This document shows positions 2,191 to 10,782 of a stretch of DNA of 44,505 nt, piece after piece. The stretch is from Phycisphaerae bacterium SM23_30 (GTDB lineage Bacteria; Planctomycetota; Phycisphaerae; Sedimentisphaerales; SM23-30): NCBI GenBank assembly GCA_001303695.1, contig LJUC01000030.1, positions 1-44,505 on the forward strand, written 5' to 3'. The notes beneath the pieces are model-generated. The model was given only the letters and a program-made list of their open reading frames with translations, ran no database searches and had not been told where the DNA came from. The stretch's first letter is position 1. Every line of letters starts with the position of its first letter. The position numbers were made by a program, and so were the translations under genes.

Positions 2191-2658
2191 CCTGAAACAT
2201 ATCGGCGGTCAATTGTTCAATTTCTATATCACCGTTGAGAATATCAAGAAGACCTCATTCGTAATAATATGCCACCAAAGGGGCGGTTCGCTCATAATAA
2301 GTCCTTATTCGTTTGGGGACGATCTCCGGAATATCATCAGGGCGCTGGATGAGGATTTGACCATCCGCGTCGCAGAGCTCCTGCTTTTTGGGGGATTGAA
2401 GGTAATATGATAAACGGCGCCGCACTGCGGACAACTGCGGCGACCGGTTATTCGATCCAGGGTCATCATGAGTTCGTCACACACCAATTGACCGTTGTCC
2501 ATATAGGTTTGAGCTTTTTTGCCCCCCTCGGTGCCGTTTTTGATTTCCCGGCGTAAGCTATCGCCACTGGAAATATGCTGAAACTGATAACGATCAGCTA
2601 ACAATTTACCTTGCGTGCCTTTATCAGCGCCGGGCGGACCAAGAAAAACAATGATCAT
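2191..2658 (-). pseudogene. adk: Adenylate kinase (zinc-LID type), degraded
   Basis: MIIVFLGPPGADKGTQ... (P-loop G to D), core missing between DELMM and TLDRITGRR, frameshift after FNPPK, in-frame TGA at 2255-2257 followed by homologous GLLDILNGDIEIEQLTADMFQVIDGL. Confidence 0.85.
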
Positions 2659-4000
2659 GCGTAGGCCCCCTTAATTCGACCGCCTTCCATGAAGCCGGCA
2701 TAGTTTCGCATAATCAGGTTGGTCTCAATTCTCTGGACCAGGTCCAAAGAGACGGAGACCACGATCAATAAACCGGTACCGCCCAGAAAAGTCGAGACGG
2801 TCCAGGGCACCTGCAGCCAAAGGAAGACGACGGTGGGGACCACGGCGATGATGGAGAGAAACCCGGCGCCGACATAGGTGATGCGCGCCATGACTCTTTC
2901 AAGATATTCGGCGGTACGTCTTCCGGGCCTGAGGCCGGGGATAAAGCTGCCGTAGTCCCGGAGGTTGTTGGCCATTTCCTTGGGCTGAAACTGGACGGTG
3001 GTCCAGAAATAAGCAAAGAAGTAAATCATGGCAATGTATAAAAGATTATAAATAAAAGATTCATATTGAAAGGCGTCATTGATTTCAGCGACGACCCGAG
3101 ACTGAGTAAAACTGAAGAGTTGGCCAAAGACCAGCGCCGGAAAGAGCATGATGGTAGAGGCGAAGATAATAGGCATGACGCCGCCATGATTAACCCGCAG
3201 GGGCAGGTACTGTCGCTGGCCGCCATAGACGCGTCTGCCGCGCATCATTTTGGCCTGCTGAATAGGGATACGCCTTTGGGCCTGGGTGATAAAGATGGCG
3301 CCGGCAATGACCCCGATAAAAGCCAGGAAGAGAAAGATAAGCTTGGAGGGTCCGATGGCATTGGCGGGAGCATTAATCGTGAAATCAGCCTGTTTGACGA
3401 CCATGTAAATTGCGGAGGGCATACGGGCGAGCTGATGCCGTTGCCGATACCGTACTCATCAATTTGCTCGCCCAACCACATGAGAAAGATGGTGCCGGCC
3501 GTCATGGCCACGATCCCCATAAAGAAAAACATAAACCAATGGTTTTGTTCGATGTCGGGGTAAACAAAGTTGTTTTTACGCATATAAGACAGCCAAAAGG
3601 CGGCCTGGATCAAACAGATGCCCACGGTGGCATAGCGGGTATATTCCTGGATTTTTTTTCTACCGGTTTCGCCTTCCTTATGGAGTTTTTCCAGGAAAGG
3701 GACCACGGTGACCATTAATTGGAAAATAATGGAAGCGGAGATATAGGGCATAATCCCCAGTCCAAACAAGCTGCTCTGGCGGAGGCTGCCGCCGGTGAAT
3801 AACTGGAGATAGTCGGCGACTTTGCCGAAAGGCGAGGTGCTCTCACCCTGCTGCTGAGTTACGCGGCGGAGCTCATCCTGGTTGATGCCGGGCACGGGCA
3901 CATGAAAACCGATGCGGTAGATACAGAGCATGGCGACGGTAAATAAGATCTTCCTGCGGAGCTCCGGGATTTTGAATATGTTAAAAATGGTATTAAACAT
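2655..4000 (-). pseudogene. secY: Preprotein translocase SecY, disrupted by an approximately 22-nt deletion (or assembly error)
   Basis: N-terminal ORF 3245-4000 ends in frame at ...DEYGIGNGIS then shifts; C-terminal ORF 2655-3422 begins ...LARMPSAIYMVVKQADF; together nearly a full SecY, but the LII.AGIV-type segment is missing and the frame changes near 3430-3440. Confidence 0.85.
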
Positions 4001-9199: not shown

Positions 9200-9883
9200 T
9201 CACCGGCGCGACTTGCGGGACGGGGCAGGCGGTGCTTCAACCTGTTCGCCAAAGTTGCCCCGATATACCCATACTTTCACTCCGATCACGCCATAAGTGG
9301 TGCGGGAGACGGCAAAGCCGTAATCCACATCGGCCTGCAGGGTGTGCAGGGGAATACTTCCCATGGTCTGTCTTTCCGAGCGGGCGATTTCGGCGCCGGC
9401 GAGTCGGCCGCTGATGATAATCTTAACGCCTTTGGCGCCGACCGCCATAGTCTGCTCGCAGTGCTGCTTCATGGCCCGACGAAAAGCGGCGCGTCTTTTA
9501 AGCTGTTCGGAAATGGCCTCGGCGACCAACTGGGCGTTCAAGTCGGGCTGCTTGATTTCCATAATATTAATAGTCACCTTCCGGTCGATCAGGTCCTCCA
9601 GTGCTTCACGAAGTTTATCGACTTCGGCGCCTTTGGGTCCGATAACCAGACCCGGCCGGGCGGTGTGCAGGACGACGCGGACATCATCACGGGTGCGTTC
9701 GATCTCGACCTCGGCAATGGCGGCATAAGGGGGCTGGCGATTCAGGCGATTGTCGATATAACGCCGGATTTGAGCATCCTCAACCAGGAAATCTCCAAAG
9801 GCGTTTTTGGGGGCGAACCACCGACTTTTCCAGCCCAGGGTTATGCCGGTTCGAAATCCAATTGGCGAAACCTTTTGGCCCAT
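9200..9883 (-). CDS. rpsC: 30S ribosomal protein S3
   Basis: MGQKVSPIGFRTGITLGWKSRWFAPK; KH motif VIGPKGAEVDKL. Confidence 0.96.
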   Translation of the reverse strand: MGQKVSPIGFRTGITLGWKSRWFAPKNAFGDFLVEDAQIRRYIDNRLNRQPPYAAIAEVEIERTRDDVRVVLHTARPGLVIGPKGAEVDKLREALEDLIDRKVTINIMEIKQPDLNAQLVAEAISEQLKRRAAFRRAMKQHCEQTMAVGAKGVKIIISGRLAGAEIARSERQTMGSIPLHTLQADVDYGFAVSRTTYGVIGVKVWVYRGNFGEQVEAPPAPSRKSRR

Positions 9884-9915: not shown

Positions 9916-10473
9916 TTAAAATCCTTTTTCCACATCGACCGCCACGTGGATATGGCAGGCCTTTCGGCTCCAGGGCACGGCCCGGCCGCGATCTTTAGGT
10001 CGCCAGCGTCTGGTATTAAGCCGGACGCCAGCGTAATCCACCCGGGCCTGACAGACGTATAAGCGTTCGATATCAGCTTCCTGTTCATCGGCACTGGCAA
10101 TAGCGCTGCGGAGCACCTTGTCAACAAAGACCGCCGCTCTTTTATTGGCGAACTTGAGCACATCCAGGGCATCCTGCACGCTGCGGCCGCGTATCAGATC
10201 GGCAATGAGCCTGACCTTTCGGGGAGCAATGGGAGCAAAGCGATGGGAGGCCGACCAGACCACCAAATCCCGAGGCGAGATCCCCATCGCCCGCGCCAGG
10301 CCCTCAATATCACCGGACTTAGGTTCAGGCTTCAGATATTCGCGCTCCCAATTTTTCACCGCCGCGCAGGCCTGGTCTGCCGTTAAACCGGCGGGAATAA
10401 GAGCCGAGGCCAAATCCTCAACATTCATACCTACCGCCGTGCGCCATTGTCTTAGTTTTTCTCCGCTGAGCAT
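9916..10473 (-). CDS. rplV: 50S ribosomal protein L22 with N-terminal XRE-like helix-turn-helix extension
   Basis: C-terminal RFAPIAPRKVRLIADLIRGRSVQDALDVLKFANKRAAVFVDKVLRSAIASA... is L22; residues 1 to about 74 (LRQWRTAVGMNVEDLASAL...AVKNWERE...DIEGLARAMGISPRDLV) resemble an XRE/Cro-type HTH. Confidence 0.92.
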   Translation of the reverse strand: MLSGEKLRQWRTAVGMNVEDLASALIPAGLTADQACAAVKNWEREYLKPEPKSGDIEGLARAMGISPRDLVVWSASHRFAPIAPRKVRLIADLIRGRSVQDALDVLKFANKRAAVFVDKVLRSAIASADEQEADIERLYVCQARVDYAGVRLNTRRWRPKDRGRAVPWSRKACHIHVAVDVEKGF

Positions 10474-10512
10474 ATCGCTCTATCCTGATATTGTGCTGAT
10501 TTCTTTGTTGTT

Positions 10513-10782
10513 CTATCTTGCTTTACTGCCACTGTGTCCTTTGAAGATCCGGGTAGGAGAAAATTCTCCCAGTTTGTGGCCGACCATATCCTCGGTTACG
10601 TATATTTTGTTAAAAATTTTTCCGTTATGGACCATAAAGGTGTGGCCCACGAACTCGGGCACGATGGTGGATCGGCGGGCCCAGGTTTTGATGGGCGTAC
10701 GATCCCCATTTTCCTGCTGGCGGAACACTTTTTTCAGCAGTTTTTGATCTACATAAGGTCCTTTTTTCAGTGATCGTCCCAT
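10513..10782 (-). CDS. rpsS: 30S ribosomal protein S19
   Basis: [19 protein letters not shown]...[17 protein letters not shown]. Confidence 0.96.

Follow-up and report, generated by a model that had tools for sequence, protein, structure and literature searches.

The S10-type ribosomal operon in the 44,505-nt stretch of Phycisphaerae bacterium SM23_30 DNA analyzed here (the window; order Sedimentisphaerales, phylum Planctomycetota) contains an rplV gene whose product carries about 73 residues ahead of the canonical ribosomal protein L22. The locus raises the question of whether this additional N-terminus is genuinely part of the protein and, if so, what it is, how it arose, and whether it acts as a gene regulator or as a component of the ribosome. 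The original prediction described the open reading frame as L22 with an extra N-terminus; our analysis agreed, including the N-terminal residues quoted, and placed the gene on the minus strand. The features discussed below are as follows.

9916 to 10473, minus strand: rplV, encoding an extended ribosomal protein L22 of 185 amino acids (stop codon counted in the coordinates); open reading frame with a Pfam match to PF00237 (5.9e-28) and an NCBIfam match to TIGR01044 above the cut-off
9937 to 10251, minus strand: canonical L22 domain, residues 75 to 179; Pfam and NCBIfam matches, with ribosomal L22 chains as Foldseek matches
10255 to 10473, minus strand: predicted N-terminal XRE/Cro-C1-like domain, residues 1 to 73; Pfam HTH hits across the family, AlphaFold2 fold with PDB matches, and conservation in the order Sedimentisphaerales and in families f10 and f25
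10363 to 10398, minus strand: insertion region between HTH helix 2 and the recognition helix, approximately residues 26 to 37, seven residues longer than in canonical XRE domains by the A22-to-W42 spacing; its limits vary with the alignment used
10345 to 10380, minus strand: recognition-helix equivalent, residues 32 to 43, with the invariant pair N41-W42; AlphaFold2 helix 32-43 and conservation of the two residues
10483 to 10486, minus strand: AGGA, a Shine-Dalgarno-like motif 9 nt 5' of the long-form ATG, read from the sequence

The L22 part (residues 75-179) scored 95.4 bits against the NCBIfam model rplV_bact (TIGR01044; cut-off, 73.65 bits), which places it in the bacterial L22 family, and neither Pfam nor AlphaFold2 revealed a domain besides the HTH and L22 in the rplV product. 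The gene is flanked by rpsS (S19, 10513-10782) and rpsC (S3, 9200-9883) within the order L2, S19, L22, S3, L16; we found no sign of a separately regulated unit around rplV, which is an internal gene of a long ribosomal operon. An antisense open frame of 209 amino acids (10118-10747, plus strand) overlaps rplV and rpsS and is most likely a shadow ORF. Elsewhere in the window, secY (2655-4000, minus strand) is split into two reading frames by a frameshift near the GIGNGIS motif, and the adenylate kinase gene (2305-2658) likewise runs on in another frame; both breaks are probably assembly or sequencing errors of the draft genome.

The long form begins at an ATG at positions 10473-10471 of the minus strand. 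All 71 homologues examined retain a start codon at this position, ATG in the order and in family f25 and GTG in family f10, and an AGGA occurs at a comparable position in several relatives of family f1. The internal ATG codes for Met63, a position occupied by leucine in 49 of 53 relatives. A wrongly assigned start codon was ruled out by the conserved starts, the upstream AGGA, and the non-conservation of Met63, and the long form, already favored over the Met63 start in the original prediction, is upheld on the same grounds.

The additional residues had been read as an XRE-like HTH domain, and a Pfam scan and a fold model had been suggested as checks. The window's own N-domain gave only sub-threshold matches, below the gathering score, to HTH_31 (0.0016) and HTH_3 (0.0023). 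When 39 homologous N-domains (alignment A1, in which N41 and W42 are invariant) were scanned one by one, matches were obtained to HTH_31 for 28 (best, 5.5e-7), to HTH_3 for 21 (8.6e-7), and to HTH_19 for 17 (3.8e-6). The A1 profile retrieved the Cro/C1 domain of CapH (7t5u) and TniQ chains from the PDB with values of 6e-4 to 1.3e-3. AlphaFold2, supplied with six sequences, predicted a compact helical N-domain (pLDDT 87; helices 4-13, 18-28, 32-43, and 53-63), and in its modeling the domain was joined directly, without a linker, to the first strand of L22. A Foldseek search of the PDB with the N-domain model was led by Cro/C1 DNA-binding domains, including DdrO, C.AhdI, P22 c2, CapH, and SinR, with a probability of 1.00 and TM values of approximately 0.6-0.68, although the E values were only 0.009-0.05. 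Such modest E values are usual for many helical domains of 70 residues, and since sequence and fold agree, the HTH assignment is firm: residues 1-73 are predicted to form a divergent domain of the Cro/C1 (XRE) type, belonging to that superfamily by modeled fold. Both checks returned the HTH that had been proposed.

A survey of relatives had also been proposed, and the extension proved to be present throughout the close relatives. The match to the query reached into the extension in 136 of the 139 Sedimentisphaerales genomes with a match. Among the three exceptions, the match in G144 stops at a contig end and the other two are fragments of 34 and 46 amino acids. Eight genomes, comprising G144 and seven without an L22 match, were rechecked for S3: its gene was also absent in six and was cut by a contig end in one. 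The loss of S3 as well indicates that the operon is absent from those six assemblies. The extension and its start codon are therefore found in essentially every Sedimentisphaerales genome with an intact rplV, and, fragments apart, each of the order's 79 genera that gave a match has kept the extension, which rules out a chimeric assembly or an oddity of one genome. Within the class Phycisphaerae, families f10 and f25 also carry it, and it is absent in the representatives of f8, f9, f11-f24, f26, and f27; outside the class, essentially only the L22 core was covered among the matches listed. Since rplV is a single-copy gene with rare exceptions, all of the L22 in a carrier bears the N-domain.

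Comparison of same-genus pairs showed that the N-domain is under purifying selection, with dN/dS mostly between 0.05 and 0.28 (0.01-0.12 for the L22 core). It nevertheless evolves faster than the core, with mean identities of 47% and 70%, respectively. This faster rate, together with the window's ATG codon for residue 63, would suit a tolerated passenger that is possibly cleaved after translation or bypassed by internal initiation; purifying selection, retention across the genera of the order, and a conserved long start paired with an unconserved Met63 make such a passenger very improbable.

The original prediction also noted a short insertion ahead of the recognition helix, and this proved to be real. 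In canonical Cro/C1 domains, such as P22 c2 and the Pfam consensus, 13 residues separate the helix-2 alanine from the tryptophan position of the recognition helix. The corresponding A22-to-W42 spacing is 20 in the window and in 61 of 71 homologues (range, 17-28), which amounts to an insertion of 7 residues (range, 4-15). Canonical XRE domains carry polar, base-contacting residues at the beginning of the recognition helix. The equivalent sites, assigned to positions 36-38 by analogy with the 434 repressor, are occupied in the order largely by V/A/I, A/S, and A, and position 36 is often polar in f10 and f25. Thus, the N-domain lacks two hallmarks of a DNA-binding HTH, the tight turn with a spacing of 13 and the polar base-contact residues at the recognition-helix start. 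N41 and W42 are invariant in all 66 non-redundant rows and are preceded by a strongly conserved basic residue (position 40). The net charge of the domain is modest (mean, +3.3) and is negative in some members. The loop before the recognition helix is a further 7-8 residues longer in L004, L006, and L035 of family f1, and L035 contains another 6-residue insertion after W42.

These features bear on the idea, raised in the original prediction, that L22 binds to its own operon, either as DNA or as RNA. According to this idea, free extended L22 would bind S10-operon DNA or the leader RNA and so exert feedback on the synthesis of ribosomal proteins, in the manner of L4 in E. coli. The XRE-like fold and the strong conservation of N41, W42, and the basic position 40 are consistent with it, and ribosomal proteins are established autoregulators in other bacteria, which provides a general precedent. 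However, the variable length of the turn and the small or hydrophobic residues where bases would be read argue against sequence-specific DNA binding, no dimerization region exists outside the N-domain, and rplV is embedded in a long operon. We consider autoregulation unlikely. The alternative offered alongside it, that the domain was captured as an extension of L22, is supported, as are the fusion, the XRE-like fold, and the long start.

We judge it probable that the fused Cro/C1 HTH has a structural role as a resident part of the ribosome close to the tunnel exit and is not a DNA-binding autoregulator. On this view, a domain of this type was joined to the L22 N-terminus at an early date, as an in-frame, linker-free fusion, and has since been retained for good as a structural part of the large subunit in the Sedimentisphaerales and in a second lineage (f10 and f25). 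In E. coli, uL22 lines the tunnel exit, which it surrounds together with uL23, uL24, and uL29 (PMC5071890). The N-domain would accordingly be expected on every ribosome, beside the polypeptide exit on the solvent-facing side where uL22 is located, and may use a surface distinct from the base-reading one to contact rRNA, an adjacent protein, or a factor at the exit. It would have no role as a sequence-specific autoregulator, and it is probably part of the outer surface of the ribosome rather than a gene switch.

A narrower form of this explanation is that the N-domain does not bind rRNA and instead offers a docking site at the tunnel exit, either to an accessory factor (a chaperone or a targeting or processing factor) or for ribosome-ribosome contact. 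The position of uL22 at the exit rim (PMC5071890) and the linker-free attachment in the model fit this proposal; any partner is so far putative, and we regard this narrower form as rather doubtful. With respect to the broader structural role, comparison of 23S rRNA between carriers and non-carriers revealed no helix missing specifically in carriers, so that simple replacement of lost rRNA, or compensation for a lost 23S helix, is unsupported. Every Phycisphaerae 23S rRNA sampled (L111-L121), from carriers and non-carriers alike, is shortened at approximately E. coli positions 1441-1560 and 1721-1760. In addition, the 23S genes of G282 (L119, family f25) and G003 (L112) contain insertions of approximately 315 bases near E. 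coli positions 541-560 and approximately 285 bases near positions 1861-1880, respectively, which are possibly intervening sequences or introns.

The phylogeny of the carriers is relevant to how the domain was acquired. In a tree of five operon proteins, the carriers form two clades, the order itself and f10 with f25, and the latter two sit inside a fully supported group with the non-carriers f20, f22, and f24. A single carrier clade was rejected (AU p 1.7e-9). On this tree, either the domain was gained twice, once through an ancient transfer, or it was gained once and lost about six times. A profile built from the f10 and f25 N-domains alone matched rplV in 55 of 58 Sedimentisphaerales genomes with up to 79 bits, and no other protein exceeded 18.8 bits. 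The A1 profile yielded nothing above 19 bits in 80 non-carrier genomes, and a search for a second N-domain copy in the same genome yielded nothing above 16 bits besides rplV. The 55 rplV matches and the empty non-carriers rule out independent recruitment of unrelated XRE domains. Judged by these profiles, the N-domains of the two carrier clades are each other's closest relatives, and because the profile is specific to rplV and the non-carriers are empty, a single origin of the N-domain is most likely. The N-domain distance between the clades is 1.60, near the 2.0 expected from the core distance, which makes a recent horizontal transfer unlikely and leaves it unsupported. The L22 core alone did not separate transfer from descent (AU p 0.127). 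Taken together, a tentative scenario would be that an HTH domain of the phage-repressor type was taken over into L22 as a lasting component, lost its ability to read DNA, gained a surface for rRNA or exit factors, and was passed between, or repeatedly lost from, lineages of the Phycisphaerae. The distribution over two clades is well suited to testing whether segments of core ribosomal genes can be transferred or repeatedly lost.

In the literature searched, with most subscription journals lying outside it, we found no earlier description of an L22-HTH fusion or of a planctomycete L22 extension. Lineage-specific extensions of L22 and of other ribosomal proteins are already known and have been described as common in bacteria; what appears to be new is the fusion of an HTH to L22. 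The NCBIfam entry PRK12279, an "L22/unknown domain fusion protein", is also an L22 fusion, but the score of 47 against a cut-off of 526, with the L22 part alone matching, indicates a different one. Lineage-specific uL22 extensions also occur in L22 of Mycoplasma pneumoniae and in chloroplast uL22c (PMC9534751, PMC5071890). The M. pneumoniae L22 extension, like those of S6 and L29, forms secondary structure in the ribosome, and most ribosomal protein extensions in that species are predicted to be disordered (PMC9534751). No HTH fold is reported for these uL22 extensions in the portions of the two papers on which we draw, whereas the planctomycete N-domain is a complete folded domain, by model, of a DNA-binding superfamily and is order-wide.

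The Cro/C1 (XRE) domains of DdrO, C.AhdI, P22 c2, SinR, and CapH share with the L22 N-domain the helical fold, the motif LA...W...G...P...LA..L, and the hits to HTH_31 and HTH_3; the L22 N-domain differs from them in the insertion of 4-15 residues, the non-polar reading positions, and the fusion to a ribosomal protein. It would offer a clear example, open to testing, of how the fold of a transcription factor was built into the ribosome at the tunnel exit, and one that is fixed throughout an order in which some members have probably been cultured. A use of the Cro/C1 fold in ribosome and rRNA binding is known from MBF1/EDF1: in EDF1/Mbf1, the cro/C1 HTH is held between the 18S rRNA helices h16 and h33, and the HTH of archaeal MBF1 associates with the 30S subunit (PMC7486125). 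MBF1, however, is a separate protein of the small subunit that adjoins uS3 and is reported to be absent from bacteria, whereas the L22 N-domain is part of a large-subunit protein, and no MBF1 or zinc-ribbon N-terminal domain lies beside its HTH, residues 1-73 being followed directly by L22. If our interpretation is correct, the domesticated HTH on L22 would be a bacterial large-subunit counterpart to the use that MBF1 makes of the same fold.
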